NCBI RefSeq assembly: GCF_000301035.1 | Contig: NZ_JH932292.1 | Coordinates: 434,001-498,000, forward strand | Direction of reading: 5' to 3' | Length of the DNA stretch: 64,000 nt | Origin: Facklamia hominis CCUG 36813 | GTDB taxonomy: Bacteria; Bacillota; Bacilli; Lactobacillales; Aerococcaceae | Shown: piece by piece, positions 25,930 through 41,598 of the stretch | Layout of the letters: the number at the start of each line of letters is the position of its first letter | Position numbering within the stretch: position 1 is the first letter of the stretch | The notes under the pieces: model-generated | The model's database searches: none | Seen by the model: only the letters and a program-made list of their open reading frames with translations | Told to the model about the DNA's origin: nothing | Position numbers and translations under genes: made by a program

Positions 25930-26240
25930 TAGGCTTTAATAGCATTAATCGTCAACTTAGTATAAGGTTGACGGTGTCCTTGCTTACGATGTGAATCTTT
26001 ACGACGTTTATATTTGAAAGTAACGACTTTCTTAGCACGTCCTTGTTTTTCAACAGTTGCTTCTACCGAAGCTCCTGATACGAATGGTGAACCGATTTTA
26101 GTTTCGCCTTCGCCACCTACAAGAACTACTTCTTCAAAGTTTACTTTATCACCTTCTTGAGCGTCCAATTTTTCAACAAAAATTGTTTGTCCTTCTTCAA
26201 CTTTGATTTGCTTACCGCCTGTCTTAATAATAGCGTACAT
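25929..26240 (-). CDS. rplU: 50S ribosomal protein L21
   Basis: A 103-residue protein with the L21 pattern: [18 protein letters not shown] at the start, [20 protein letters not shown] in the middle, and the C-terminal [29 protein letters not shown] precedes the ATG. It heads the rplU-prp-rpmA operon, with a typical L21-type leader and a strong promoter. Confidence 0.98.
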
Positions 26241-26350
26241 TTAAGCACCTCCTATAATTTATTTTGAGACTCGCCAACTTGCGCGACCAATGTGCTTAAT
26301 ACACAAGCTGAGCGGTTGCAGATGTGGTGCTACACAATACAACAACAGTC
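26241..26350 (-). promoter_or_regulatory. Probable L21 autoregulatory mRNA leader
   Basis: The ~110-nt untranslated region before rplU contains several short self-complementary segments (for example GTGTAGCACCACAT, ACCGCTCAGCTTG, GGTCGCGC). Bacillales and Lactobacillales commonly carry an L21 leader here. Position and length fit; I have not verified the consensus structure. Confidence 0.55.
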
Positions 26351-26353
26351 TTA

Positions 26354-26383
26354 TTCTAGCAGACTGATCTTCATCTTGTCAAT
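26354..26383 (-). promoter_or_regulatory. Promoter of rplU-prp-rpmA
   Basis: The minus strand has a consensus TTGACA (26378-26383), an 18-nt spacer and TAGAAT (26354-26359) with TGC before it. It lies within 20-50 nt of the pepO stop codon. Confidence 0.85.
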
Positions 26384-26401
26384 GATTAATTGTAATTTGT
26401 T

Positions 26402-28306
26402 TTACCAAATTCGAACTCGTTTTTCAGGAGCAAGATACATGGAGTCTCCTTCTTTCGTTGCAAACTCTTGATGGAATTCATCCAGATTTCGAACTTGAAT
26501 ATTGGCCCGCAATTCCGCCGGTGCGTGAACGTCGATTTGTAATAACATCGCTTCAAATTCTGGTCGAGCCTTTTGACACCAAATCCGCGCCCAATTATAG
26601 AAAAATTCATCAATTTGGTAGTCAGACTCATGCTTTAAAGCTTGTAAAGCTGCCGTTAAGCCCCCGCAATCAGCAATATTCTCAGAAACCGTCAGTCGTC
26701 CATTAACACTTCCCTGCCTAAAAGGAATACCATCCCACTGATCAATCATAGCTTGAGCCTTGGCTTCAAAGGATCGGAAATCTTCTTCTGTCCACCAATT
26801 ATTAATGTTTCCATCAGCATCCATCTTCGCACCATTATTATCAAATGCATGAGAAATCTCGTGAGCAATAACTGCTCCAATCCCACCGTAATTCTGAGAC
26901 CGAGACTGGTCTAAACTATAAAATGGCGCTTGTAAGATCGCCGCTGGGAAGCAAATTAAATTCCCTGAAGGACTATAGTAAGCATTAACCATATCTGCTG
27001 GCATATGCCATTCTGTACGATCTACTTTTTTACCCATTTTTTCAAAATGATGGGCCACTATTATTTCTTGTAATTGACAAAAATTCTTAAAATAAGATTG
27101 GTCCGAATCGACTTTTAAATCGGAATAATAAGCAGGATAGCTATCAGGATAACCTACCAAGACTTCAAAGGCATCTAATTTTTGAATTGCTTTTTCGATC
27201 GTCTCTGGGCTTAACCAATCATTCTGATTTAATCGGTCTTGATAGACCTTGATCATCTGGTCAACCATCTCTTGCACATCTGCTTTAGCTTTTGGACCAA
27301 AGTATTTCCTACCATAATAGATACCTACTGGCTGACTAAAAACTTGTTTGACTTGATAATAAGCATGTTTTTTAAAGCTCTGCACTTCTGGGTTGCCTGA
27401 CAAGGCCAGACTATACTGACTAGCCAATTGCCGAATTTCTTCAGATAATATATTAGCTAGATCATTAGCAACTCGGACCAATAACCAGGCTTGCAATTTT
27501 TTAAAGCCATCTTCTTTAAAGAAAGAGTTCCAAGCCTCAAAAAACTCAACTTGGGTCACAATAATGTTTTCAGGGACAAAACCAATCAAGCCTGTAATGA
27601 TCGCATCAAACTTCAAGTTATTAAAATAAGCGATGACTTCATTGCTAGGACGTGGATTATATTGCTTAGTATAATCAGCTAATGCTTCTCTTGATTTTTG
27701 CTTTTGAGCAAAAGCTTTGTCCAATTCCAAAGCTAATTGAACAAGTAACTCAGCTCTTTCACTTGAATAGCCATATTTTTCTAATAGAGCTTGGCTTTGT
27801 TTTTCATAAGTTGCTAACAAACTCTGTCCCTTTTTATTTCCTTCTTGATAATAAACAGTATCTGGTAGAATTAGATTAGGTACATCTAAATATAAAGCAT
27901 GCTCTTTAGCTGATTTCAGGTCTGGGCTAACCGATAAATTAAAAGGACTCGTCCAACCCATTTCTATCATTCGATAGATTCTATCTTGTAAATTTTCGTA
28001 GTCTTCCGCTTTTAGAATCCAATCCAAAATTTTCTTCGCTTCTTGCACTCCAATTTTCGTGCGACTATCTTGATCTAAAGCTAGTCGATAAAGCTTCACA
28101 AATTCCAATAGTGCTTCGTCTTCTAATTCAACGTTTCCAGCAAGCATCTGGTCCACTTCTGACAACATGGTCTCCTCAAGCTCATCCGCTAAAACTGAAA
28201 ACCCTCCTGTACGAGATTTATCATTAGGAATAACCGCTGTTTTAAGCCAATCGCCATTCACTGCTTGGTATAAATCTTCTTTTACTAACTGTCGATCAAT
28301 CGTCAT
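26402..28306 (-). CDS. pepO: M13-family zinc endopeptidase PepO
   Basis: A neprilysin-like oligopeptidase. The 634-residue protein lacks a signal peptide or membrane anchor, so it is probably cytoplasmic, as in lactic acid bacteria. The zinc-binding HEISHAFD lies near residue 477, the third ligand motif ENIADCGGL near 537, and the substrate-binding NAYYSP near 445. The N-terminus starts with the typical LYQAVNGDWLK. Length matches lactococcal PepO. It stands alone between mreD and the rplU operon, and no clear terminator precedes the rplU promoter. Confidence 0.95.
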   Translation of the reverse strand: MTIDRQLVKEDLYQAVNGDWLKTAVIPNDKSRTGGFSVLADELEETMLSEVDQMLAGNVELEDEALLEFVKLYRLALDQDSRTKIGVQEAKKILDWILKAEDYENLQDRIYRMIEMGWTSPFNLSVSPDLKSAKEHALYLDVPNLILPDTVYYQEGNKKGQSLLATYEKQSQALLEKYGYSSERAELLVQLALELDKAFAQKQKSREALADYTKQYNPRPSNEVIAYFNNLKFDAIITGLIGFVPENIIVTQVEFFEAWNSFFKEDGFKKLQAWLLVRVANDLANILSEEIRQLASQYSLALSGNPEVQSFKKHAYYQVKQVFSQPVGIYYGRKYFGPKAKADVQEMVDQMIKVYQDRLNQNDWLSPETIEKAIQKLDAFEVLVGYPDSYPAYYSDLKVDSDQSYFKNFCQLQEIIVAHHFEKMGKKVDRTEWHMPADMVNAYYSPSGNLICFPAAILQAPFYSLDQSRSQNYGGIGAVIAHEISHAFDNNGAKMDADGNINNWWTEEDFRSFEAKAQAMIDQWDGIPFRQGSVNGRLTVSENIADCGGLTAALQALKHESDYQIDEFFYNWARIWCQKARPEFEAMLLQIDVHAPAELRANIQVRNLDEFHQEFATKEGDSMYLAPEKRVRIW

Positions 28307-28379
28307 ACAAGCACCTCTTTCTTAAAATTATCTGTATTATATCATACTAAAAAAAGGCCTATCAATCTTAGACCCTACC

Positions 28380-28406
28380 AAAAAAGCTGCTTTTAAAAGC
28401 AGCTTT
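28380..28406 (-). terminator. Terminator after mreD
   Basis: A palindrome AAAGCTGCTTTTAAAAGCAG (then CTTT) is followed on the minus strand by six T, seven nt past the mreD stop. Confidence 0.9.
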
Positions 28407-28412
28407 AAATCA

Positions 28413-28982
28413 TTAAAAAATAATATGATCATTATAGCCCAACCAACGGAGTAAAGCTTTTGCTGGGAAATATAAGAAGAAGGCCATTGCAGTATTAAAA
28501 ATTAAACTAGGTCCCAAGCGAACCAGTATGTAAGTTTGGACACTCATATCAACAAGGCCCACTCTTAAATAAAAATAATATACGACAAAATCGATTAGGG
28601 TAATCGCCACAATAAACAACATAAAATGAATAATCGCATTCCTTGGAAAGTACCTTCTTGTCTTCAGAATAAAATAAGTTAATAAATAGTAAATGATGGC
28701 ATACAGGCCCAATACTGTCGTTAAATATGCATCTTGAACCAGACCGATCAAAAAACTATACCATAAAATATAGGAATGTCTCAGATAAAAGGCGAACACA
28801 AGGATAAAATATACCAAAAAATGAGGCACTATGACCTGCTGTTCGCCAATAAATGCCTTAGGAAATAAAGTAGATAAGGCGGCATCTACGACTAAAGCAA
28901 TTAACAGGACCAAGGGAATTAATCCCTTAATATTCCGATCGCGTTGATAACTTTGATTATAAGCCAGATTAGTCCTTCTCAT
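28413..28982 (-). CDS. mreD: Rod shape-determining protein MreD
   Basis: MreD is an integral membrane part of the elongasome. The 189-residue protein has five to six hydrophobic segments (GLIPLVLLIALVVDAALS, FLVYFILVFAFYL and others), typical of MreD, which is otherwise poorly conserved. I place the start at the ATG at 28982, inside the mreC 3' end (14-nt overlap), with AGGTGAAG upstream; a GTG three codons earlier is possible. The mreB-mreC-mreD order supports the call. Confidence 0.9.
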   Translation of the reverse strand: MRRTNLAYNQSYQRDRNIKGLIPLVLLIALVVDAALSTLFPKAFIGEQQVIVPHFLVYFILVFAFYLRHSYILWYSFLIGLVQDAYLTTVLGLYAIIYYLLTYFILKTRRYFPRNAIIHFMLFIVAITLIDFVVYYFYLRVGLVDMSVQTYILVRLGPSLIFNTAMAFFLYFPAKALLRWLGYNDHIIF

Positions 28983-29820
28983 TAGCTTCACCTGCTCTTT
29001 GAATCACAGTTACAAATCGAATATCGGTCATTTCTCCGGCGGGTTTGATACGAACAATTTGGAAAAGACCATAGTCATCCATCTGGGTCGAAGTAACTTC
29101 ACCGATTAATAAGGTTGATGGAATCACTCCCCCTAATCCAGAGGTAATTACCATGTTCCCTTTCTTAACCTTAGCATCTGGAGAAACCTGAGTCATTAAA
29201 TACTCTTTAGTCTGGGGATCGTACTCACTAAGAACACCGATCGCCGAGGCCCCTTTATCATCAGTTTGGATGCGAGCCGACACCATACCATCTTTACTCT
29301 TTTGTGACATTAGGAGCAAGACTTTGGCTGAAGTTGGATACACCTCAATTACCCGGCCCACTAGACCATTTCCTGCCATCACCGCCATGTTTGGTTTAAG
29401 TTTTTTGTTTTCACCCGCATTAATAATCAAAGTTTCAGTCCACTGATCGGGATTACGAGAGATAACCGTAGCATTAACCGTTGTAAATTCAGAAAGTGTT
29501 TCACTTAGATCTAATTGCGAACGTAATTTTTCATTTTCAGTCTCTAAGTCAGCAATTCGAACCTGCATCTCGTATGCTTGATCGATTTTAGATTTTAAGG
29601 CTTCATTTTCCTCAAAGGTATTCACCAAATCATCCACCGAATTGACGAAACGCACCACCATGTTCACCGGCTCAGATAGAACACGACCAGTCCAAGATAC
29701 CGTCTCATTCACTGCCAATTTTAAGATGTTGTTGGTTGAATTGAAAAGTGAGTAGCTAATCAAGGAAACAATTAGAATCCCACCTAAAAGAATCCCAATT
29801 AATTTTTTGTTATTGAGCAT
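28969..29820 (-). CDS. mreC: Rod shape-determining protein MreC
   Basis: MreC links the cytoskeleton to wall synthases. The 283-residue protein has one N-terminal membrane anchor (KLIGILLGGILIVSLISYSL), a coiled coil (residues ~65-100, ENEALKSKIDQAYEMQ), and two beta-barrel domains with the family's VISRNPDQWTETLIINAG and GNGLVGRVIEVYPTSAKVLL. It lies 18 nt after mreB and overlaps mreD. Confidence 0.94.
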   Translation of the reverse strand: MLNNKKLIGILLGGILIVSLISYSLFNSTNNILKLAVNETVSWTGRVLSEPVNMVVRFVNSVDDLVNTFEENEALKSKIDQAYEMQVRIADLETENEKLRSQLDLSETLSEFTTVNATVISRNPDQWTETLIINAGENKKLKPNMAVMAGNGLVGRVIEVYPTSAKVLLLMSQKSKDGMVSARIQTDDKGASAIGVLSEYDPQTKEYLMTQVSPDAKVKKGNMVITSGLGGVIPSTLLIGEVTSTQMDDYGLFQIVRIKPAGEMTDIRFVTVIQRAGEANEKD

Positions 29821-29838
29821 AAATAGTCTTCCTTCTTC

Positions 29839-30861
29839 CTATAGACGTGCTTGACGCTCGATCTGTTTACTTTGATAATTGAGTTGGTCAAATAACTTAC
29901 CGGCTCCTATCGCAGCTGCATCAAAAGGATAATCATATGAACGTACAGGAATTCCAATTTCTCCTTCAATACGCGTTGCTAAACGCTTTAAGAGACATCC
30001 TCCCCCACTTAATAGGATTCCAGTTTCCAGAAGATCAGCCGATAACTCAATAGGTGTTTGTTCCAATACTTGTCGAATACCTAAAAGGATTTGTCCGATC
30101 ACTTCATTGATAGCCTCTGCCACCAAAGCCGCTGAAACCTTAGCTTGGCTCGGCACTCCTTGGGCTACGCTGCGCCCCCGTACTAATAGATGATCTTGGT
30201 CATCACTTTCATAATGAGCATTTCCCAAAACAATTTTTAAGGTCTCAGCAGTATAGTCACCAATGAGCAACTGATGTTCATTACGAACTGCTTGCGCAAT
30301 TTTATCATTCATACTACCCGAGGCTTGCTTTAGGGTTAGAGACTTTACTGTTTCACCATAGGAGATAACTGCAATATCCGTCGTCCCTTCACCAATATCT
30401 ACAATCATCTTACCGCGCGCCTGTTCGACTTCCAAACCAGCTGCTAAGGCCACCGCATAAGGTGCTTCGACGATCATTGCTCGATTAATTCCTAGATCAC
30501 GAATTGAATCAATAATCGCCTTTCTTTCTACCTTAGAAAGGTCGCAAGGAGCCGTTAAAACCACTTCCGGTTTTGAAAATGAATATTTTAATGAGGCCGA
30601 CATAAAGTGAGCCAACATTTGTTTAGTGTAAGAAAAATGAGCGATCGCTCCGTGCTGCAAAGGATGAATCAGTTCATAATTATCAGAAGTACGTCCCTCC
30701 ATCCTACTAGCTTCTCGGCCAAAAGCGACGACTTTTTGAGTCTGCTTTTCAACTGCCAATAATGAGGGTTCCCGTAAGGCAATCCCTTTATTAGCAACCG
30801 ATATGACTGTATTCGCTGTACCAAGATCAATACCTAATCGTTCCTTGCCAAAAATTGCCAC
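29839..30861 (-). CDS. MreB-family bacterial actin, divergent
   Basis: The 340-residue protein has the MreB/Mbl architecture: phosphate-1 loop LGIDLGTANTVI, adenosine-binding VEAPYAVALAAGL, phosphate-2 loop VDIGEGTTDIAVIS and the late ILLSGGGCLLKRL motif. It is divergent: canonical MreB has DIGGGT where this has DIGEGT, and the usual RPMRDGVIADY-type segment reads HPLQHGAIAHF. The operon with mreC and mreD says it serves cell-wall elongation. Whether it is orthologous to MreB, Mbl or MreBH cannot be decided here. Its -10 is embedded in an inverted repeat. Confidence 0.9.
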   Translation of the reverse strand: MAIFGKERLGIDLGTANTVISVANKGIALREPSLLAVEKQTQKVVAFGREASRMEGRTSDNYELIHPLQHGAIAHFSYTKQMLAHFMSASLKYSFSKPEVVLTAPCDLSKVERKAIIDSIRDLGINRAMIVEAPYAVALAAGLEVEQARGKMIVDIGEGTTDIAVISYGETVKSLTLKQASGSMNDKIAQAVRNEHQLLIGDYTAETLKIVLGNAHYESDDQDHLLVRGRSVAQGVPSQAKVSAALVAEAINEVIGQILLGIRQVLEQTPIELSADLLETGILLSGGGCLLKRLATRIEGEIGIPVRSYDYPFDAAAIGAGKLFDQLNYQSKQIERQARL

Positions 30862-30889
30862 GTTCCTTCCTCCTCATTAATGATATAGC

Positions 30890-30925
30890 TTGATAAATTA
30901 TATCAAAAGACCTAACTTGATTCAA
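30890..30925 (-). promoter_or_regulatory. mreBCD promoter with inverted repeat over the -10
   Basis: The minus strand has TTGAAT (30920-30925), a 17-nt spacer and TATAAT (30897-30902, preceded by TGA). TTGATA-N5-TATCAA spans the -10 at about 30891-30906, a perfect 6-bp inverted repeat. Confidence 0.75.
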
Positions 30926-30991
30926 TGGATATCCTAGGTCTAATCCTATGGTTAGCCCTAATCATAGAGTCTAGTCTCTTTCTTAGAGGTA

Positions 30992-31693
30992 TTAATCAAA
31001 TAAGTTACTCGTCTCTCGAATGCTATGGTATATGCCATTTCCAATGATAATATGATCTAACAATTCAATGCCCATCATATCACCACAAGCAATCATCCGC
31101 TTGGTAAAATATAAATCTGCCGGTGATGGATCAGGATTACCTGATGGATGGTTATGAGCCAGAATAATTCGAGCAGTAGGATACTTTACTGCCTCTTTAA
31201 AAATTTCTCGAGGATGTGCCACGCTGGAGGCCAAAGATCCAATAAAAACGGTTTGTTTACGAATCACTTCATTTTTTGTATTTAAACACAACGAAACAAG
31301 ATGTTCCTGTTGCAGGTCTCCCATTTCCTGGATTAACCACTGACCGACTTTCTGGGTCGAAGTTGCAATACCATATCTCGGTAAATTGGATATATGAACC
31401 CTAGACCCTAACTCAATCGCCGCTTTCAATTCAATCGCCTTAACCCGACCAATTCCTTTAATCGATTGGAACTCTTCAAGAGAAGCCTGCTTTAAATCAT
31501 TTAAACAAGAAAAACAAGCCAAGAACTGCCCAGCTAGATCCATGACTGATTGCTCTCGAGTGCCTGTTCTCAATAGGATGGCCAATAATTCTTGATTGGA
31601 TAAGGCCTTTACACCATACTGAACGAGTCTTTCTCTTGGTTGTTCTGGATGCCGAACCGCCTTCTTTTTCAAACTAGCATCGATATATGCCAT
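30992..31693 (-). CDS. radC: RadC/JAB-domain protein
   Basis: RadC proteins carry a metal-binding JAB (JAMM) domain; the proposed DNA-repair role is poorly supported. The 233-residue product has an N-terminal helix-hairpin-helix (SNQELLAILLRTGTREQSV, IKGIGRVKAIELKAAIELG) and the C-terminal JAMM motif ILAHNHPSGNPDPSPAD near residue 177. Its GGAGGGG ribosome binding site forms the 3' arm of a hairpin that starts right after folC, so expression may be limited by both termination and sequestration. Confidence 0.93.
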   Translation of the reverse strand: MAYIDASLKKKAVRHPEQPRERLVQYGVKALSNQELLAILLRTGTREQSVMDLAGQFLACFSCLNDLKQASLEEFQSIKGIGRVKAIELKAAIELGSRVHISNLPRYGIATSTQKVGQWLIQEMGDLQQEHLVSLCLNTKNEVIRKQTVFIGSLASSVAHPREIFKEAVKYPTARIILAHNHPSGNPDPSPADLYFTKRMIACGDMMGIELLDHIIIGNGIYHSIRETSNLFD

Positions 31694-31697
31694 AGTA

Positions 31698-31739
31698 AAA
31701 CCCCTCCTTCACCTATAATTAGATGAATTGGAGGGGTTT
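31698..31739 (-). terminator. Terminator-like hairpin that contains the radC ribosome binding site
   Basis: On the minus strand AAACCCCTCC and GGAGGGGTTT pair perfectly over 10 bp with a 22-nt loop, followed by TTTTA. The hairpin begins 5 nt after the folC stop and ends 4 nt before the radC start. The 3' arm holds the GGAGG Shine-Dalgarno of radC, so the element may terminate folC transcripts and mask radC translation. Confidence 0.85.
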
Positions 31740-31744
31740 GCGCT

Positions 31745-33094
31745 TTAACCATTAAGCTTTTGTGATAGAATGTATTCCCGAACTTGTGAGACAAAATATA
31801 AAGAACCTGTTATCAACAGTAAAGAACGATCAGATCCACTATGGTCATGACAATACTGGTCGATCCATGTCGGCCAATCTTCAATAAAATGATACGCCTG
31901 TTCTATCGGCTTATCCGTTTGTTCTAAGATAGCTTGGAAGTCTTCCAATTCCATAGATTCAAAATGATCAAAGCCGGTAAAATTAACCTGATCAACCTCA
32001 AAAGTTAATAATAAAGGAACTTGGTCGTGCTGATTTTTCTTTCTTAGTCCAGCATAAACCAATTCAATCTGATAGTCTTTAAATTGATGGGAGACAACTT
32101 CTTTTAAAGCTGTTAATCCTTCCATATTATGAGCTCCATCCAGATAAATCAAAGGCTGCTCACTAATTGCTTCCAAACGACCGATCCAGTGAGTCTGGCT
32201 CAAAGCTTGAAGAGCCTTGGACCAATCAATTTCTAAATGATGGCCTTGCATCCATAGAATAAACGCTTGTAAAGCAGTTGCTGCATTGTGGACTTGATGT
32301 TCACCAATCATAGCAATCTTTACCGCTAATGATTCATTCAAACATAAAGGACTCTTAAAAATAAATTCTGCCCCGTGAGGCCCCAAATCTTTAACCTGAC
32401 TGACTTGATACTCTTTATCATAGTGATAGGCTTTAGCATGATGGTCCTGAGCCCATTGATCGATAACCGCTAATGGGCCCTCTTCCATATAACCAGTCAC
32501 CGCACTATGGCCTGGCTTAATAATTCCCGCTTTCTCATAAGCGATCTTTTCTTTAGTATCACCCAACATTTCTGCGTGATCTAAACCAATGGATGTGATA
32601 ACAGATACCTGTCCATCCAGAACATTAGAACAATCATGCATTCCACCAATACCCGCTTCAATAAGACATACATCAGGCTTCTTTTCTTGAAAGTATAAGC
32701 AGGCTAATATGGTAAACAATTCAAAATATATTAAGCGACCGTACTCTGAATGAGTCTCCATATAAGTATTCAATTCTTTTAAACGGTTTGTCCAACGAAT
32801 AACCGCTTCATCTGAGATCTGTTCATGGTTATAACTAATCCGTTCATTAAATCGCTCAATATGTGGTGAAGTAAAAGAACCCACATTTAAGCCCTGACTT
32901 TGAAATAAGTCTCTCAAATAAGCGACCACTGATCCTTTACCATTAGTCCCCGTAATATGAAGGACCGGCAACCCAAGATGGGGATTCCCCATGTATTCTA
33001 ATGCTTGATACATCTTCGTCATATCCGGACGTGGTATCGGATTGACTTGATTTAAAAGCCAGTCCGTTGCTTCTTCAATCCTTGTAAATTCCAT
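31745..33094 (-). CDS. folC: Folylpolyglutamate synthase / dihydrofolate synthase family protein
   Basis: Adds glutamate to folates, keeping them in the cell, and in some species also makes dihydrofolate. The 449-residue Mur-ligase-like protein has the ATP-binding LHITGTNGKGSVVAYL near residue 44, the folate-side TSPHIERFNERI near 76, and YLDGAHNMEGLTALKEV near 319. Length is normal. It follows valS by 21 nt, the valS-folC order common in Firmicutes, so it is transcribed under the valine T-box. Confidence 0.96.
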   Translation of the reverse strand: MEFTRIEEATDWLLNQVNPIPRPDMTKMYQALEYMGNPHLGLPVLHITGTNGKGSVVAYLRDLFQSQGLNVGSFTSPHIERFNERISYNHEQISDEAVIRWTNRLKELNTYMETHSEYGRLIYFELFTILACLYFQEKKPDVCLIEAGIGGMHDCSNVLDGQVSVITSIGLDHAEMLGDTKEKIAYEKAGIIKPGHSAVTGYMEEGPLAVIDQWAQDHHAKAYHYDKEYQVSQVKDLGPHGAEFIFKSPLCLNESLAVKIAMIGEHQVHNAATALQAFILWMQGHHLEIDWSKALQALSQTHWIGRLEAISEQPLIYLDGAHNMEGLTALKEVVSHQFKDYQIELVYAGLRKKNQHDQVPLLLTFEVDQVNFTGFDHFESMELEDFQAILEQTDKPIEQAYHFIEDWPTWIDQYCHDHSGSDRSLLLITGSLYFVSQVREYILSQKLNG

Positions 33095-33115
33095 TTATTT
33101 ATCTCCCTTAATGGA

Positions 33116-35758
33116 TTAATTCATCGATTGAAGCGTTTCGATTCGCGCTTTAACCGCTTGTAATTGTTCTTCATACTGTGTTAATTTTTGTCGTTCTTGC
33201 TCAACGACTGCTTCCGGTGCTTTAGCGACAAAGGATTCATTGTCCAATTTTTTACTGGCACGAGTCACTTCGGATTGCAGACGACTCACTTCAGATTGCA
33301 GACGTTGAATTTCATCTTCAATCTTAATCAACCCTGCAAGAGGGATTAACACTTGGGCAAAGGGCAATGTTTGAGTGACCATTTCTTCATCAACAGCAAA
33401 TTCATCACCAATTTTTAAAGATTGACAGTGGCAGAAGCGATCAATATAAGCCTGATTATCTTGTAAATCAGTGATGACTTGAGCTTCTTTGGTTTGAATC
33501 ATAATATCTAAAGGCTTGGATAATGGTGTATTCATCTCATTGCGAATCTGTCTAACTGCTGTAATCACCTGAATGAGTTGATCCATCGCCTTTTCTGAAT
33601 GATCATTTTGATATTCAACCTTAACCTCTGGATACTTAGCATGGCATAAGTTGGCACCTGATGGCGCGATGTGTTGCCAGATTTCTTCCGTTACAAAAGG
33701 CATAATCGGATGCAGTAAACGTAAAAATTGATCCAAAACATAAATCAGGACAGATTGGGTCGTCCGACTATTCAAATGATCTGCTTGAAGTTGTTCTTTT
33801 GTCATTTCAATATACCAATCACAATAATCATTCCAGATAAAGTGATACAAAATGCGACCCGCTTCCCCAAATTCGAATTTCTCAAATAGACGGGTTACTT
33901 CTTCAATCGTTGTTTGAAGTTTAGATAAGATCCAACGATCAGCCAGAGTTAAATCCTGTCCAATCTCTATTTGATCTAATTTTAGATCATCAACATTCAT
34001 CAAGACATAACGGGAGGCGTTCCAAATCTTATTAATAAAGTTCCAAGCAGCAGCCATCTTTTCTGTTGAATAGCGAACATCTTGCCCTGGTGTCGATCCT
34101 GTTGCCAAGAACCAACGGAGAGCATCTGCTCCATATTCGTCCACGACATCCATTGGGTCTACCCCGTTACCTAAGGATTTAGACATTTTTCGTCCCTGAG
34201 CATCACGAATCAACCCATGAATTAAAACATTTTTAAAAGGACGTTTATGCGTAAATTCCAAGGATTGGAAAATCATTCGGCTAACCCAGAAGAAGATAAT
34301 ATCATACCCTGTGACTAGGGTATCCGTTGGAAAATATCTTTGATAGTCTGCTTGTCCTTCGTCGGGCCATCCCATCGTTGAGAAGGGCCACAAGGCACTA
34401 GAGAACCAGGTATCTAACACATCAGACTCTTGTCGCCAATTTTCAGCATCTTGAGGTGCTTCTAATCCAACATATACCTCTCCGGTCGTTTTATGATACC
34501 AAGCAGGAATTTGATGTCCCCACCATAATTGCCGCGAAATAACCCAATCATGGACATTCTCCATCCAGGTCAAGAAAGTATTCTCAAAACGAGGTGGATA
34601 GAAATCTACCCGATTATCTGTTTCTTGATTGGCAATCGCTTCTTTTGCTAATTGGTCCATCTTTACAAACCATTGAGTGGATAGACGAGGCTCTACAACA
34701 GCGTGAGACCTTTCCGAATGTCCCACTGAGTGAACGATCTCTTCAACTTTAATTAAAAATCCGCCAGCTTCAAGATCTTCAACGACTGCTTTTCGGCATT
34801 CTTCTCGGGTCATTCCTTGATACTTGCCCGCATTCTCATTCATTGTCGCATCATCATTCATCACGTTAATTCGAGGCAAATCATGCCGATTGCCCACGGC
34901 AAAGTCATTAGGATCATGAGCTGGTGTAATTTTAACAACCCCAGTTCCAAATTCTCGGTCAACATAATCATCAGCAACAATTGGAATTTCACGATCCATT
35001 AAGGGTAAAATCACCGTTTTACCAATCAAATCTTGGTAACGATCATCCTTAGGATTAACCGCAACCGCAGTGTCACCTAATAATGTTTCCGGACGCGTCG
35101 TTGCTAACTCCACATAACCTGATCCATCAGCTAAAGGATAGCGTAAATGCCAAAAATTACCTGGATCATCTTGATAGACAACCTCGATGTCCGATAGCGC
35201 TGTTTGGAATTCAGGGTCCCAATTTATAATATATTCCCCTCGGTAAATCCAACCTTTTTGATATAAATCAACAAAGACTTTACGAACCGCTTCATTCAAG
35301 CCCTCATCAAGGGTAAATCGCTCTCTTGAATAATCAACTGAAATTCCCATCTTTGCCCATTGCTGACGGATGGTTTCAGCATACTCTTCCTTCCATTCCC
35401 AGGTTTTTTCTACAAACTTTTCCCGGCCTAATTCATGGCGCGATATCGATTCTTCACGACGCAACTTCTCTTCAACTTTGGCTTGAGTTGCAATCCCGGC
35501 ATGGTCCATTCCGGGTAACCACAAGGTATCAAAACCTTGCATTCTTTTTTGACGAATAATCATATCTTGTAAGGTCACATCCCAAGCATGTCCTAAGTGT
35601 AATTTCCCAGTAACATTGGGTGGTGGAATAACAATTGAATAAGGTTTTGCTTTTTTATCACCTGAGGGTTTAAATAGATCTTCTTCTAACCAAGACTGGT
35701 ATTTCCCCGATTCAACCTCTTGAGGTTGGTATTTGGTTGACATTTCTTCTGCTTTCAT
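33116..35758 (-). CDS. valS: Valyl-tRNA synthetase
   Basis: Charges tRNA-Val. The 880-residue protein has the class I HIGH motif as [16 protein letters not shown] near residue 50, the KMSKS motif in [14 protein letters not shown] near 524, a large editing domain between them, and a C-terminal coiled coil ([20 protein letters not shown]). The start at 35758 has AAGGTGTCTT upstream; a 17-codon extension is rejected because it would run back into the T-box terminator region. Expression is controlled by a T-box. Confidence 0.98.
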
Positions 35759-35781
35759 AAGACACCTTCCCTTTAATATTT

Positions 35782-36010
35782 TAAAATAAAAAGCCCTATG
35801 CCTTCGCATAGGACGTATGAATAACGTGGTACCACCTAATTTTTGACCCGAAAGTCACTCTTTTTGATATCGAAGCCAAGGCTCCGTAAAGTACTAATCC
35901 ATGTTTCTCATACTTTAAGACTCCAAGCTACCACATTCACCTTGAAAACTTTCACCAAATGTTTTCTCTCTAGCCGATGGTCAATGTCCCTCTCTTCATC
36001 GCCTTCATTT
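35782..36010 (-). promoter_or_regulatory. T-box riboswitch upstream of valS
   Basis: On the minus strand the hallmark T-box AGGTGGTACCACG lies at 35825-35837. It is followed by a 7-bp terminator stem CCTATGC-GAAG-GCATAGG (35795-35812) and a T-rich run ending at 35782. The ~230-nt leader fits stem I and the antiterminator. A GTA valine codon in GTGGTAGC near 35929 is a candidate specifier, but I cannot place the specifier loop with confidence. Uncharged tRNA-Val would favour read-through into valS-folC. Confidence 0.93.
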
Positions 36011-36014
36011 TATT

Positions 36015-36033
36015 ATTATAGACCTTAGTCTAT
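36015..36033 (-). promoter_or_regulatory. valS promoter -10 with overlapping inverted repeat
   Basis: TATAAT on the minus strand (36015-36020) lies at the start of the T-box leader. ATAGAC-CTTA-GTCTAT at 36018-36033 is a perfect 6-bp inverted repeat overlapping it. No good -35 was found. Confidence 0.5.
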
Positions 36034-36089
36034 CATGAAATATAAACTAGGGCAAGAGTCTGTACCATAAGGAAAAAAACAAGAAATTC

Positions 36090-36836
36090 TTATTTTAATC
36101 GACTAAAAACGCTTTCGATTCGATCATTAAATACGAAAGAACCGGGTGGAAGATTTCTTATAGGTGATTGGTTAATAACCGCACAAGACTTTCCATTAAA
36201 ATACTGGATAAAGGAAGCCGCAGGATAGACATTCAAGCTAGTCCCAGCAACAATCAACAAGTCTGCTTGGCTCATAGCCTCAATACTACTCATTATGGTC
36301 ATTGGATCTAAGCTTTCTTGATATAAAACAATGTTCGGTCGTACAATTGCCTGATCTATCGGGCAACGTGGAACACCTTTAGCATCGCGTTCCAATTCTT
36401 TCAATGAATAATGTTGACCACATTTCAGGCAATAATTATCCAAGGTCGTCCCATGCAATTCTATCACATTTTGAGACCCTGCTCGTTGATGCAATCCATC
36501 AATATTTTGAGTAATCACCATTACAGACTTACCTTGTTGCTCAAGAGTTGCTAAATACTGGTGAGCTGGATTAGGTTTAGCTTGGGGATATATCAAATGC
36601 TTAAAATAAAAATCAAAGAAGATTTCTGGATGAGCTTCAAAAAAATCATGGGACAGAATCTCTTCTGCACGACAATGATAGCCTGTATCTTTCATATATA
36701 TCCCTTTTGAAGAACGAAAATCTGGAATGCCAGAAGCAGTAGAGACCCCTGCTCCCCCAAAGAATACAAGATGACTACTTTGGTCGATAGCTGTTTGCAT
36801 TTTCTGCAACTTAGCCTCAGCAGATTGATCGATCAT
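36090..36836 (-). CDS. Sir2-family NAD-dependent protein deacylase
   Basis: Sirtuins remove acyl groups from lysines using NAD. The 248-residue protein has the Rossmann motif FGGAGVSTASGIPDFRSSKG near residue 25, the catalytic TQNIDGLHQRAGS ... ELHGT (His near 119) and the late VAGTSLNVYPA. The zinc module has CLKC, but the second pair reads CPID instead of CxxC, so the fourth zinc ligand is apparently Asp. The start at 36836 follows AAAGGGGGTATTTAC. It is a single-gene unit with its own promoter. Confidence 0.93.
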   Translation of the reverse strand: MIDQSAEAKLQKMQTAIDQSSHLVFFGGAGVSTASGIPDFRSSKGIYMKDTGYHCRAEEILSHDFFEAHPEIFFDFYFKHLIYPQAKPNPAHQYLATLEQQGKSVMVITQNIDGLHQRAGSQNVIELHGTTLDNYCLKCGQHYSLKELERDAKGVPRCPIDQAIVRPNIVLYQESLDPMTIMSSIEAMSQADLLIVAGTSLNVYPAASFIQYFNGKSCAVINQSPIRNLPPGSFVFNDRIESVFSRLK

Positions 36837-36928
36837 GTAAATACCCCCTTTAATAATGACAAAATAAATCAAAATTTTAAATAAAGATACCTATCGACTA
36901 GAATGTACTTGATCAGACAATCAATTCC

Positions 36929-36945
36929 ATTATAACAGCTTTAAC
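36929..36945 (-). promoter_or_regulatory. Extended -10 promoter of the sirtuin gene
   Basis: The minus strand has AAGCTGTTATAATGG with TATAAT at 36929-36934 and TG in the extended position, immediately downstream of the ridA terminator. Confidence 0.55.
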
Positions 36946-36987
36946 AAAAAACTCCTTCCTACAGGCCACAACCAATAGGAATGGAGT
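36945..36987 (-). terminator. Terminator after the RidA gene
   Basis: On the minus strand ACTCCATTCCT and AGGAAGGAGT pair (10 bp with one bulged A), then six T. It starts about 20 nt past the RidA stop. Confidence 0.85.
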
Positions 36988-37008
36988 CTTAATACAAATT
37001 ATAAAATT

Positions 37009-37389
37009 CTATAAACTAGCGATAACTTCAATTTCAACCAAAGCATTCTTTGGAAGTGTCTTAACAGCAACCGCTGAACGAGCTGGTTTAGAGGTAAAGT
37101 ATTGACCATAAATGTCGTTAAAAACAGCGAAATCGCCCATATCCGCTAAGAAGCAAGTTGTTTTAATAACCTTGTCAGAACTTGAGCCAGCCGCCTTTAA
37201 TAAGGCATCAACATTCTTAATAACTTGTTCGGTCTGACCTTGAATATCTGTTGCATCAATTTGATTGCTTTCAGGATTAATCGGAATTTGACCTGAACAA
37301 AACACTAAATCACCAATGACCTTGGCTTGAGAATAAGGTCCGATCGCTGCTGGTGCATGGGTCGTTGCAATTGTCTTAATTTCTGCCAT
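37009..37389 (-). CDS. ridA: RidA-family enamine/imine deaminase
   Basis: RidA proteins hydrolyse reactive enamine/imine intermediates from PLP enzymes such as threonine dehydratase. The 126-residue protein starts with the typical IATTHAPAAIGPYSQAKVIGD and holds FCSGQIPINPES and PARSAVAVKTLPKNALVEIE, the last containing the conserved Arg. Length is standard. It is downstream of thiI by 40 nt on the same strand and may share its transcript. Confidence 0.95.
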   Translation of the reverse strand: MAEIKTIATTHAPAAIGPYSQAKVIGDLVFCSGQIPINPESNQIDATDIQGQTEQVIKNVDALLKAAGSSSDKVIKTTCFLADMGDFAVFNDIYGQYFTSKPARSAVAVKTLPKNALVEIEVIASL

Positions 37390-37429
37390 TCTACATTCCT
37401 CTTTCTCTTAATTAATAAAAACAAAGAAA

Positions 37430-38638
37430 CTACAACAAATCTTGAATCGCTGCTTGGGCTTCGTTTTCATAGTTGGCATGGATTACCGAGCTTTGAATCT
37501 GACTGACCGCTTCATCGACTAAGCGATCCACCTCTAAGAGGTCTTCATACTTTTTAACGGTATGTAGTCTAGGTTTAGTCCATGGTGACCGTGGTGCAAA
37601 GACCGTACAACAATCCTCATACGGTTGATTGGAAATATCATAGGTTCCAACCTCTTCCGCTAATGCTATTATATCATTTTTATCCATCGCAATTAAAGGG
37701 CGAAGTATTAAAGATTCACTGACTTCATTAATCACTTGCATCGATTCGATTGTTTGTGAAGCCACCTGGCCTAAGGACTCCCCATTTATGATGGCTTTGG
37801 CTTTTTGTTGGATTAAAAGACGGTCCATAACCCGAAGCATCATTCGACGCATAACAGTCATTGATAACTTATCAGGAACTTGTTCTCGGATAGCTAGCTG
37901 AATGGCCGAAAAAGGAACTTCATGAAAGACAATTTCAGTAGCGTATTGAGCCAAAACACTGGTTAAACGTTTAGCTTTTTCCACAGCTTGAGGGCTTGTA
38001 TAAGGAGGCGAAGCAAAGTGAACCATCTCTAAGGCCATCCCCCGGCGAATCATTTGATAACCTGCTATCGGCGAATCAAAGCCACCAGACAGCATTAATA
38101 AGCCCTTGCCAGAAGAGCCGTATGGCAATCCTCCTAGACCTGGATAAGACTTGAGACTCAAATAAGCTGCGTCTGATTGAATATGGACCATGAGTTTCCA
38201 ATCTGCCTGGCGAAGGTTAACATTTAACTGAGGATAAGCTGTTAAAATTTGGCCACCAATTTCACGTTTGATTGTGATACTTTCATGTTCATAACTTTTG
38301 TCCGTTCTTTTAGCAACGACTTTAAAGCTTTGTCCCGCTTTTAAATCCAACTCACTAAACAATTCGATTGCTTTTTGACCAATCTGGTCCAGATCTCGCT
38401 CTACCGCAAAGACCGGTTCAAAGCGTTGGATTCCAGGGGTTTTTTGCAAAACCTCGATGACCGTCTCATAGGGGAGGTCTTGCCATTTTAAGTGCATAAA
38501 ATCATGGCCAGCAATGATTTTTATTTTTTCTAAATCCTTCGTTTGAAAACGAATATGTTGGGCAATTTGTTGACGGAACCGCTTGCCATTTTGTCCTTTC
38601 GTGGTTAATTCACCATAATGAATCATCATTTCTTTCAT
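37430..38638 (-). CDS. thiI: tRNA 4-thiouridine synthetase ThiI
   Basis: Transfers sulfur to U8 of tRNAs (s4U). The 402-residue protein has the N-terminal ferredoxin-like/THUMP region (ending near residue 165) and the PP-loop ATPase (LLMLSGGFDSPIAGYQMI near 180). The C-terminal rhodanese domain of enterobacterial ThiI is absent, as usual in Firmicutes. GGGAGGTAACTGT precedes the ATG at 38638. The stop of the cysteine desulfurase gene is 4 nt upstream, a coupling that fits a dedicated NifS-ThiI sulfur relay. Confidence 0.96.
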   Translation of the reverse strand: MKEMMIHYGELTTKGQNGKRFRQQIAQHIRFQTKDLEKIKIIAGHDFMHLKWQDLPYETVIEVLQKTPGIQRFEPVFAVERDLDQIGQKAIELFSELDLKAGQSFKVVAKRTDKSYEHESITIKREIGGQILTAYPQLNVNLRQADWKLMVHIQSDAAYLSLKSYPGLGGLPYGSSGKGLLMLSGGFDSPIAGYQMIRRGMALEMVHFASPPYTSPQAVEKAKRLTSVLAQYATEIVFHEVPFSAIQLAIREQVPDKLSMTVMRRMMLRVMDRLLIQQKAKAIINGESLGQVASQTIESMQVINEVSESLILRPLIAMDKNDIIALAEEVGTYDISNQPYEDCCTVFAPRSPWTKPRLHTVKKYEDLLEVDRLVDEAVSQIQSSVIHANYENEAQAAIQDLL

Positions 38639-38642
38639 ACAG

Positions 38643-39794
38643 TTACCTCCCTTGTAAGTCAAGACTAAAGCATTTTGAGATTCTTTCAATCACGGCTAAT
38701 AATTGTTCCACTTCGACAGCAGAAGTAGACTGGCTCATCGAAAGCCGAATCGCTGACTGAGCTAATGACGGGTCAACACCCATGGCTTGTAAGGTATGAT
38801 GAGCTTGATGCTTGCGACTGGAACAAGCAGAAGTCGTTGATACCATCGCACCCTCTTGAGAAAAAGCATTAATCAGGACTTCTCCTGGTATCCCTGGATA
38901 AGCGGCACAAATAATATGAGGGCTTGCTGAATCTTTAGCAAAAACGGTCCAATTCTGTGATTCTAACGCTTCCACAATCCGATCATGCTCCCCTTTTAGG
39001 AATACATAAGATGCCGTCTGCTTAGCTTCAGCAAATCGAAGTGCCTTAGCCGTTGATACTATTGTGGCCAGATTCTCCGTTGAAGAACGAAGACCACGCT
39101 CCTGTCCGCCCCCATAAAGAAGCGGTGCTCTATTCACACGTTCTTTCATCATCAAGATGCCTGTACCCCGAGGTGCATGAAATTTATGTCCAGATAGTGT
39201 CAAAAGATCGATCCGCTCTTGCTTCATCCTATCTAGATGCAAACAAACTCCTTGAACCCCATCTACATGCCATAAAATTTGAGGATAATCCTCTAGCAAA
39301 CGACTAATCGCCTTAAGATCCTGAACACTGCCCACTTCATTATTAACAGCCATAGTTGATAATAGTAACACATCGTCACTTAATAAGTTTTCTAGTTGGT
39401 CGATGTCGATACAGCCGGACTCATCCACGGGGGCTAGTTTAACTTGATATCCTTTCGACTGTAGTAAGGGAATCTGCTTAAAAATAGAAGGATGTTCAAC
39501 TTCTGAAAGAATTACCTGATGACGATCTGGATGACTCTTAGCTGCTTGATCTAGAATCACTTGTAGGACCCAGTTATTCGATTCCGTCCCCGAAGAGGTA
39601 AAATAAACTTCGTCAGCTTTAACTGACAGGATCTGAGCCACTTGCGTTCTTGCTTGCTCCAAGAGCTGCTGGCAAATTTGACCGGCTTGATGAGCTGATG
39701 ATGGATTCGCAAAGTACTCCCGACTTACTCTAAGGTATGTATCCAAGATCTCTTCGCTTGGTTTTGTAGTCGCTGAATGATCAAAATAAAGCAT
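38643..39794 (-). CDS. Cysteine desulfurase, NifS/NifZ type, partner of ThiI
   Basis: PLP enzyme that takes sulfur from cysteine. The 383-residue protein has FDHSATTKPSEEI at the start, the PLP-lysine motif LSGHKFHAPRGTGIL near residue 195, and the catalytic cysteine in STTSACSSRKHQ near 322. Being directly upstream of thiI, it most likely supplies sulfur for tRNA thiolation, like the NifZ-ThiI pair of B. subtilis. The start is ATG at 39794 with AGGAAAAGA; a seven-codon extension is unlikely. Confidence 0.95.
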   Translation of the reverse strand: MLYFDHSATTKPSEEILDTYLRVSREYFANPSSAHQAGQICQQLLEQARTQVAQILSVKADEVYFTSSGTESNNWVLQVILDQAAKSHPDRHQVILSEVEHPSIFKQIPLLQSKGYQVKLAPVDESGCIDIDQLENLLSDDVLLLSTMAVNNEVGSVQDLKAISRLLEDYPQILWHVDGVQGVCLHLDRMKQERIDLLTLSGHKFHAPRGTGILMMKERVNRAPLLYGGGQERGLRSSTENLATIVSTAKALRFAEAKQTASYVFLKGEHDRIVEALESQNWTVFAKDSASPHIICAAYPGIPGEVLINAFSQEGAMVSTTSACSSRKHQAHHTLQAMGVDPSLAQSAIRLSMSQSTSAVEVEQLLAVIERISKCFSLDLQGR

Positions 39795-39825
39795 TCTTTT
39801 CCTTTCCTTTCTCATTCTTTTCCAT

Positions 39826-39866
39826 AAAAAATCCGAACAGTACCAGCTAAGCAGGACTATTCGGAT
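39826..39866 (-). terminator. Terminator after ezrA
   Basis: On the minus strand ATCCGAATAGT and ACTGTTCGGAT form an 11-bp stem with one mismatch, followed by six T. Confidence 0.88.
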
Positions 39867-39873
39867 GATTTAA

Positions 39874-41598
39874 TTAAAACATACGGTGTTGCTTCTCTTG
39901 ATGATACATCCTACGAACTTGAGTTGGTCCCTCTGGATCAACTCGCCGTAAGGCTTTTTCAATGACTGCGAGTGCTTCTCGATAGCGAAACTCTTCGTAG
40001 AAATAGTATTGAGCATCTCGGATAGCTTGATCCATTTCTGGGATATCATAACGGAAGCGATTCGAATGTTGGATCATATACTCAGTCAAAGTCGCAGAAT
40101 CAATAATCTCTTCGGTAATTGTCTCTAACTGATCCATGTCTTCTTGTAATTTAACTTCTAATTGATCCACTTCATCCATGTCAACTTTCACACGATTCAA
40201 GAATTGAGATAAGTTTTCAATCTCTTCCGTAACCTTATAGAATTGTTGGTAATAGACTTCATGCAAGCCAGGAAGATTATTTTTTTCCAATCGTCGCTTA
40301 AGATTCCTTAAATCTAATTCATACATATCTAGGTTCGCTTTAGCATCTTTCTCGCGTGCCGTCAAATTGCTCAAAGACTTAACTAGATCCTGTTGTTTAA
40401 GGGCTATCTCTTCTACATTACGTTCGATCTTACGAATAGATGCCTCAATTTGTGTATATACTGCATGGGAAGTTTCGATTTCCTGATTAAGTTGCATAAA
40501 ACGATTCTCTTCTAACTCAATTTGACGTGTTAAGTCATTGACTTGGTCCGTTTCATTATTATGAAGAATATAGGATTGAGAAATCCGGTCAACTTCAATC
40601 CCAGCATAACGATTACTTTCCTTCACTTCATCGATTTGACGTTTTAATTGGTTGATATGCTGGTTCACAAAGGTCTTAGCTTGAACTTCAGCCTCCATTA
40701 ATTCATAGAGTGAATTAATTTCACGGTCCGCCTTATCCATTAAAGTGGTTGCTTTTTCAAGATCAGCATTTTTAATTTCAGATTTCGCCTTGTTTAACTG
40801 TTCTTGAATCGCATCAATCTCTTCCGGAATATTCACATTAGCAAAGTTAAATTGACTCGCAACCATTTTCTCGTAACCATCACGCAAGTCAGCTAAGCTG
40901 TCTTCATAGTCATTCTTAATTTGATCGTTCATCTGTGGAATTTTTTCCAATATTTCTTCCAGGTCTTGGGTATCTTTTTCGATCGAATTAAGCAGATCTT
41001 GTGCCTCTAAATAATCGCCCTCACTAGTATATTCATTATAAGTGGTAAAATCCAATTCTAAGAGTTGTAAATTCTTTTCTAAAGTCTCAATTGCTGGCCC
41101 GAAATCAAACGCATGGTTCATTACTTTTTTTCGAGCTGTTTGATAGCGCTCCAAAAGGTCCTCGTAGCGTTCTTGATTATCTGATTCTGTCTCAAGTAGG
41201 TCTGTTAACTGTTGATGTAGATCATTCACCTGTGATTCAGTCTCATCCAATAACTCCCGTGCTTGGTTGAGCGCATTTTTGGCTCTCACCAAATTCATCT
41301 GTTCTACAAATTGTTCTGATCCTACTAACGCAGCTTCAATTTCTGTAAATTGAAAATTAGTAATGGTTTGCCAATTAGCAACTAAGCTTTCATATTTACG
41401 TTTTGTCTGACCTGAGAGATTCATATTCTTCAAGGTGAAGAGCTGATCGGCAATTGAAACAGACATCATTTCATCCTTACGTTGCTCTAGCTCTTTAATT
41501 TCTTTACTACGTTGTGTACGGAAGAAATAAATCAAACCGTATACTAATAGGATCAAGACAACGATTATGAATAGAATATCTGTAAATTTTAATCCCAT
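39874..41598 (-). CDS. ezrA: Septation ring formation regulator EzrA
   Basis: EzrA is a membrane-anchored spectrin-like protein that tunes FtsZ ring assembly and connects it to wall synthesis. The 574-residue product has one N-terminal membrane helix (FTDILFIIVVLILLVYGLIY, residues 5-25) and then coiled coil over almost its full length. Family-typical segments include FGPAIETLEKNLQLLE and, near the C-terminus, RFRYDIPEMDQAIRDAQYYF. Length and topology match EzrA. It is monocistronic, with its own promoter and terminator. Confidence 0.95.
   Translation of the reverse strand: MGLKFTDILFIIVVLILLVYGLIYFFRTQRSKEIKELEQRKDEMMSVSIADQLFTLKNMNLSGQTKRKYESLVANWQTITNFQFTEIEAALVGSEQFVEQMNLVRAKNALNQARELLDETESQVNDLHQQLTDLLETESDNQERYEDLLERYQTARKKVMNHAFDFGPAIETLEKNLQLLELDFTTYNEYTSEGDYLEAQDLLNSIEKDTQDLEEILEKIPQMNDQIKNDYEDSLADLRDGYEKMVASQFNFANVNIPEEIDAIQEQLNKAKSEIKNADLEKATTLMDKADREINSLYELMEAEVQAKTFVNQHINQLKRQIDEVKESNRYAGIEVDRISQSYILHNNETDQVNDLTRQIELEENRFMQLNQEIETSHAVYTQIEASIRKIERNVEEIALKQQDLVKSLSNLTAREKDAKANLDMYELDLRNLKRRLEKNNLPGLHEVYYQQFYKVTEEIENLSQFLNRVKVDMDEVDQLEVKLQEDMDQLETITEEIIDSATLTEYMIQHSNRFRYDIPEMDQAIRDAQYYFYEEFRYREALAVIEKALRRVDPEGPTQVRRMYHQEKQHRMF

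Follow-up and report, generated by a model that had tools for sequence, protein, structure and literature searches.

Occlusion of a Shine-Dalgarno (SD) sequence in a long RNA has been described for several genes of bacteriophage T4. In gene e and I-TevI, the SD lies in a helix of the long RNA, and a late promoter gives a shorter RNA that lacks the 5′ part; the SD of the soc leader is likewise hidden in a helix of the long RNA, and comparable layouts have been reported for segB (PMC3014915, PMC2988022). Competence genes form the second point of comparison. In streptococci radC belongs to the SigX regulon (PMC5069739, PMC6560143, PMC5167698) and, together with coiA and dprA, to its core genes (PMC5069739). 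The pneumococcal consensus has a CGAATA core that ends ∼7 nt upstream of the start (PMC6560143). In Lactobacillus sakei, SigH activates competence genes (PMC3364868).

We analysed the gap between folC and radC in a 64,000-nt stretch of DNA (the window). As in T4 gene e, the SD of radC is inside a stable predicted helix in the long RNA. A promoter signature is placed such that the predicted radC RNA would lack the 5′ arm of this helix. Unlike in T4, where the shorter RNA comes from phage late transcription, the setting here is a cellular competence regulon with an alternative sigma factor, a T run suggesting a terminator is often present, and the arrangement is shared by several genes and by several families of an order. 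The genes concerned (radC, coiA, dprA, comEA and comG) are the same as in the streptococcal ComX/SigX (CIN-box, combox) regulon, and the putative promoters resemble those of ComX/SigX in their T-rich upstream part and in a core box ∼7 nt before the start (PMC6560143, PMC5167698, PMC5069739); unlike the CIN-box, the −10 element of the window is TAATTATA and its −35 element, AGCGCA, is genus-specific. The GC-rich stem, followed by T residues in many relatives, is also like an intrinsic terminator, from which it differs in that the 3′ arm is the SD of the next gene and the T run of the window is short. In the literature searched, most subscription papers lying outside it, we found no description of such an SD lock at competence genes. 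We consider it probable, at about three in four, that the radC hairpin is a lock enclosing the gene's own competence promoter, from which a SigH/SigX-type factor would start transcription at ∼31709 and give an RNA without the 5′ arm.

The hairpin in the folC-radC gap

The genome (G000) is one contig of 1.9 Mb, and its nearest named radC relatives are those of Facklamia and other Aerococcaceae. In the window, 51 nt separate the folC stop from the radC ATG (Table 1).

Table 1. Positions in the window of the features of the folC-radC gap and of the two flanking genes
Feature	Position	Strand	Basis
folC, co-directional, upstream of radC	31745..33094	−	TIGR01499, 354 bits (cut-off 162.65)
folC stop TAA	31747-31745	−	
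Predicted −35 AGCGCA, immediately 3′ of the folC stop	31739..31744	−	Genus promoter signature
Hairpin 5′ arm AAACCCCTCC, within the promoter spacer except for its first base	31730..31739	−	
Inter-arm region: AA bulge, inner helix 31727-31720 / 31715-31708 and loop	31708..31729	−	RNAfold
Predicted −10 TAATTATA, within the hairpin, 17 nt after the −35	31714..31721	−	
Inner loop ATTA	31719-31716	−	
Putative transcription start (∼31709)	31708..31712	−	Pneumococcal ComX motif-to-start distance (PMC6560143)
radC SD AAGGAGG, its GGAGG part in the 3′ arm	31703..31709	−	
Hairpin 3′ arm GGAGGGGTTT	31698..31707	−	
Run of 4 T between SD and ATG, possible weak terminator tail	31697..31700	−	Longer T runs in many relatives
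radC ATG	31693-31691	−	
radC	30992..31693	−	NF000642 RadC family (NCBIfam), 255.4 bits (cut-off 180)

The first-pass annotation of this DNA had described a perfect 10-bp stem that starts 5 nt past the folC stop and contains in its 3′ arm the GGAGG of radC, ending 9 nt before the ATG. The coordinates, the stem length and the position of the GGAGG were all correct; TACT is left between the 3′ arm and the ATG. To this main stem the predicted fold adds an inner helix of 8 pairs, including one U-G, which together with the AA bulge and the loop ATTA was absent from that annotation. The hairpin alone was calculated at −24.3 kcal/mol, and a stretch of 81 nt around it, taken from the transcribed strand, folded at −27.7 as against −14.92 ± 2.94 for shuffled sequences (z = −4.35; 0 of 200 as good). 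Perfect 10-bp stems with at least 5 GC and a loop of 3–30 occur at six places in the window, the radC site included, and therefore the stem by itself is not rare; what stand out at radC are the pairing of the SD and its conservation.

The same annotation had called the hairpin terminator-like, a description that holds for the GC-rich stem and less well for the tail, TTTTACTA, which has 5 T in 8 nt with at most four consecutive, three of those within the stem. Termination of the valS-folC RNA at the hairpin is plausible; the T run is short here and longer in many relatives. A terminator scan with a loop limit of 8 did not list the radC hairpin, the loop of which is too large for that limit. Rfam covariance models applied to 26000–40000 at their gathering scores gave no match at 31694–31744 and matched the ribosomal protein L21 leader alone (26257–26327, minus strand). 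A T-box leader was also seen upstream of valS (35806–36008, minus strand); its score of 70.8 bits (E = 1.5e-15) does not reach the gathering score, which is 93. We discarded the idea that the radC site is a repeated element, a 201-bp query having found one place in the genome (E ≤ 0.001).

Predicted occlusion of the Shine-Dalgarno sequence and covariation of the arms

We calculated the cost of opening the SD in the RNA from −75 to +12, and for comparison shuffled the upstream part 60 times. A cost of at least 8 kcal/mol, a mark set in this analysis, was taken as occlusion. For radC of the window the cost was 15.2 kcal/mol against a shuffle mean of 5.5, with 0 of 60 shuffles as high. The radC start would thus be hidden in read-through RNA, which had been proposed in the first-pass annotation and agrees with the predicted occlusion. 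Costs for the other competence genes of this genome were 17.8 (coiA), 14.9 (comEA), 8.0 (dprA) and 4.9 (comGA).

The family sample comprised 69 of the 75 radC-bearing genomes (G059, G061, G015, G036 and G037 were left out, as was G016, which has no usable start), 21 of 23 comGA and 20 of 21 coiA loci. The median cost for radC was 8.6 (69 loci; shuffles 3.8), and 34 loci exceeded all 60 of their shuffles, while 30 of the 69 fell short of the 8 kcal/mol mark. All 60 shuffles were also exceeded at 11 of 20 coiA loci (median 11.65) and at 7 of 21 dprA loci (median 8.0). For comEA the median was 3.2 (21 loci; shuffles 3.3), with one locus above all its shuffles and three occluded; for comGA median and shuffles were both 3.3, and none of the 21 loci exceeded all 60. 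Among control genes, the median was 2.45 for 20 genes of the window, none of which beat all shuffles, and 2.55 for 28 genes of relatives, of which one did. Rows identical to radC loci had been removed from the relatives' controls, and that single gene, L018, is itself a radC that remained among the 28. Starts were reset by hand for radC of G035 and for dprA of G005 and G028; the others were assigned by a rule giving preference to a good SD, with doubtful outcomes at a small number of loci (comEA of G001 and G032). In G035 we did not find ATG, GTG or TTG behind the radC SD, and the start codon is likely to be ATT.

The pairing itself was assessed by swapping, in which each 5′ arm was paired with the 3′ arms of other genomes, using one genome per genus and, from the genus of the window, all genomes with the gene. 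Own arms paired far better than swapped arms at radC (−16.7 vs −10.6), coiA (−15.1 vs −10.2) and dprA (−12.0 vs −8.0), with 0 of 20,000 permutations as good in each case. The signal was weaker at comEA (−9.7 vs −8.1; 90 of 20,000), and comGA showed no covariation (−8.1 vs −8.0; 8238 of 20,000). Since comGA has the competence box described below, but a divergent upstream gene in 18 of 21 loci, it serves as an internal negative control. Within the family, SDs that follow the end of a co-directional gene by no more than 110 nt are occluded in 56 of 80 cases, compared with 9 of 72 in other contexts, which we count in favour of a lock. Retention of the pairing with altered arms, which the first-pass annotation had named as a point to be checked, was found in relatives, including all five genomes of the genus.

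The covariation extends across the order. When each of 52 genera was represented by a single radC (f7 left out), none of 20,000 permutations was as good as the own pairs. In occluded radC loci, aligned on the SD with a single locus for each genus, several columns beyond the SD core show the full set of six standard pair types; as these are minimum-energy folds of loci picked for occlusion, the variety of pairs counts here and the paired fraction is no evidence. The sample outside the family consisted of 60 of 132 radC-bearing genomes, chosen for genus spread. With it, 72 of 129 radC loci (38 of 55 genera) were occluded and 57 were under the mark. Occlusion outside the family was found at 7 of 9 radC loci in f2, 8 of 10 in f3, 9 of 12 in f8, 3 of 4 in f9, 4 of 11 in f4, 2 of 9 in f6, 0 of 4 in f7 and 0 of 1 in f5.

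Promoter signature and candidate sigma factor

In the radC upstream regions of relatives, a GCGTATNTAT-like box recurs between the SD-pairing arms, both of which have changed. The box is retained at some loci where, judged by eye, the upstream sequence is not folC-like; for this reason a promoter was suspected and other late-competence genes were inspected. We found the box at many comGA, comEA, dprA and coiA loci.

Within the genus (g1), the signature takes the form [AG][AG]C[AG]CN, 17 or 18 nt, TANYT. It occurs at most 75 nt upstream of 24 of the 25 starts of radC, coiA, dprA, comEA and comGA in five genomes, a count that is partly circular because the signature was derived from these same genes. 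This does not affect the control count, which was 0 of 48 genes (20 of these lie in the window; the other 28, among them the radC L018, belong to named loci from several genera). All five genes of G000 carry the signature; the spacing is 17 nt in G000 and G001 and 18 nt in G002–G004. The sole miss is comEA of G001, the start of which was probably wrongly called. Across the whole genome, RCGCA-N17-TANTT had 29 matches as against 24 for the reversed pattern, so the pattern is unspecific alone and useful only through its position beside a start. We noted the same signature before two further genes. At G000:C1:376523-376549 (L239), an ACACCT/AGGTGT pair surrounds it (by eye). The gene that follows, possibly a new competence gene, encodes 493 aa; the start of this protein resembles a signal peptide, and neither Pfam nor NCBIfam gave a match at E ≤ 0.01. 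At G000:C1:390379-390405 (L240), the gene behind the signature encodes a NERD (nuclease-related) domain protein of 286 aa.

A TGCGTATTTATA-like box model, learned across the family from 132 upstream regions with coiA left out, reads T-G-[CT]-G-T-A-T-N-T-A-T-A. Scored with this model, which was trained on those same regions, 37 of 69 radC, 12 of 21 comGA, 13 of 21 comEA and 7 of 21 dprA loci lay above the 99% level of shuffled windows. The putative promoter of the window scored 5.8, under the 95% shuffle level of 7.3, and the case for it rests on the genus −35/−10 signature and not on the de novo model. The streptococcal CIN-box octamer, YTACGAAYW / TACGAATA (consensus in PMC5167698), is absent from the window, which has TAATTATA. 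The CIN-box core, as ACGAATA or GCGAATT, was found in the loop of four occluded radC loci (genus g24 and f4, the latter inferred to be streptococci); CGAAT forms occur in genus g24 and f2, and CGTAT and CGGAT forms elsewhere. A box-like core stands between the arms in 59 of the 72 occluded radC loci, compared with a mean of 14.3 and a maximum of 24 when the loops were shuffled 500 times, although this narrower pattern was chosen after the loops had been seen. A first, looser pattern that matched 67 of the 72 was dropped; shuffled loops match it 33 times on average.

A search of G000 for sigma-70 region 2 returned two matches, one of them strong, which was taken to be the primary factor. The second is a factor of 204 aa above the sigma-70 superfamily cut-off. 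Its genes next door are YacP-like and RlmB-like (RNA methylase) by eye, which we take to be the arrangement at sigH of B. subtilis. On this ground it would be a SigH-like factor in a gene neighbourhood similar to those of SigH in L. sakei and B. subtilis; unlike them, it scores 47–56 bits against five SigH/PRK08295 models with cut-offs of 208–414, far below equivalog level.

Predicted transcript truncation, possible termination and alternative readings

An RNA starting at ∼31709, a position set by the pneumococcal spacing if CTAATT is treated as equivalent to the core, omits the 5′ arm, and the predicted cost of opening the radC SD falls from 15.2 to 0.9 kcal/mol. The SD was open in folds starting at 31711 to 31708; in the fold starting at 31712, a 6-pair stem covers the first SD bases. 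Across the 55 radC loci with the box, with starts assigned by rule from the box position, the median cost dropped from 9.2 to 0.9 on truncation. Among occluded loci, truncated RNAs had their SD at 2 kcal/mol or less in 29 of 36 radC, 7 of 10 coiA, 3 of 8 dprA and 2 of 3 comEA cases. Truncation does not always free the SD, and one coiA remains at 15.2.

The computations show the hairpin, the covariation of its arms, the promoter signature common to these genes and, on truncation, a predicted opening of the SD; from these we infer how a competence sigma factor at this promoter, its start site, a block on translation and termination may work together. The valS-folC read-through RNA would carry both arms, fold and hide the SD, and in many relatives it would probably be stopped at the U-tract after the hairpin, so that as a result of the lock little RadC should be made outside competence. 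With an active SigH/SigX-type factor, polymerase would use the −35 adjoining the folC stop together with the −10 enclosed by the hairpin, and would start at ∼31709, at the 3′ arm; the RNA, lacking the 5′ arm, could not form the lock and would begin near a free SD. As the signature lies across the element and a start at ∼31709 is predicted to free the SD, radC is probably made from such a competence-sigma transcript and not from folC read-through. The first-pass annotation had held that radC would be made solely from read-through RNA with an open hairpin, for example one melted by a ribosome finishing folC. We find no support for this claim: a competence-type promoter signature spans the element, with a predicted start at the 3′ arm. 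The alternative that it mentioned, a start at 31700–31730 that drops the 5′ arm and frees the site, would be the better reading. Beyond silencing, the hairpin perhaps also ends read-through RNA, and we regard termination as a second, variable function of the element.

The main rival is that the hairpin is a plain terminator without a translation role, which only ends valS-folC transcription, the SD arm and the inner promoter being a matter of space economy. Several counts agree with this. A separate upstream terminator-like hairpin, scored by a simple test at radC, coiA, dprA and comEA with loci counted without correction for kinship, was present at 3 of 103 loci with an occluded SD, at 18 of 78 with an open one and at 6 of 35 in between. 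The rare co-occurrence of the two suggests that insulation from upstream RNA may be a common need that is met in two ways; by the same test, 60 of the 78 open loci have neither lock nor separate terminator, and a separate terminator is likewise missing at 31 of 39 open radC loci. In four other families, 5 of 25 coiA are occluded; many coiA loci there have instead a separate terminator that points to the box. The 8 nt ahead of the start contain 5 T or more at 11 of 12 occluded coiA loci of the family; for occluded radC this holds at 17 of 39 loci within the family, where the window just qualifies, and at 29 of 33 beyond it. Being that common (46 of 72 occluded radC), such T runs mean that termination alone could account for much of the conservation, and at these 46 loci termination is likely. 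However, 26 of the 72, including 22 of the 39 in the family, keep the SD-pairing arms without such a T run, and a separate upstream terminator, which some relatives use, could serve without involving the SD. We therefore hold a plain terminator to be unlikely, though it deserves to be taken seriously. At several open loci, the terminator T run leads directly into the box. Examples in which a conventional terminator T run abuts the competence box are coiA L339, L324, L336 and L345 and radC of G209, G168 and G086, where the tail may double as the T-rich part of the promoter.

Translational coupling, by which a ribosome finishing folC opens the hairpin and radC is translated from valS-folC read-through, gains from the stem being 5 nt past the folC stop, a distance that a terminating ribosome could span. 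We judge it quite improbable, since the competence promoter signature spans the element and the hairpin is also present at coiA and dprA, where the upstream gene is not folC, and at radC of L016–L018, where the upstream C-terminus is not folC-like by eye. That pyrimidine-rich promoter DNA inevitably pairs with a purine-rich SD, so that some complementarity of T-rich promoters is expected by chance, is scarcely credible as the explanation, given that comGA and most comEA have box and SD and no pairing excess (medians 3.3 and 3.2, shuffles 3.3 and 3.3) and that the arms of radC, coiA and dprA pair much worse when swapped.

The lock enclosing the competence promoter may be part of a wider arrangement. 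We lean slightly towards the reading that, throughout the order, which includes the lactic-acid bacteria, late promoters that follow closely on housekeeping genes lie within a terminator/SD hairpin, such that only the competence-sigma RNA is translatable. Sigma-specific mRNA isoforms would then act as a second lock, with one 50-nt element gating both transcription and translation, and for this too we see the balance as marginally favourable. If right, this would explain the silence, until competence, of recombination genes directly behind always-on genes, and competence promoters with a drifted box could be located by a sequence rule (arm, −10, SD, T run). It would also carry a device of phage T4 into a chromosomal bacterial regulon, and RNA-seq read-through of such genes would be no proof of protein production.

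Interruptions of radC itself were seen in a few relatives. In L109 and L111 (G038 and G039, genus g12), a group II intron of ∼600 nt that has no large ORF splits the gene at one shared position, and each of the two loci matches two Rfam group II models; split radC matches occur in all four genomes of this genus, two of which were examined closely. In G054 (C1:1720361-1758850), radC matches on the same strand are separated by ∼38 kb, as though the gene contained a large element.
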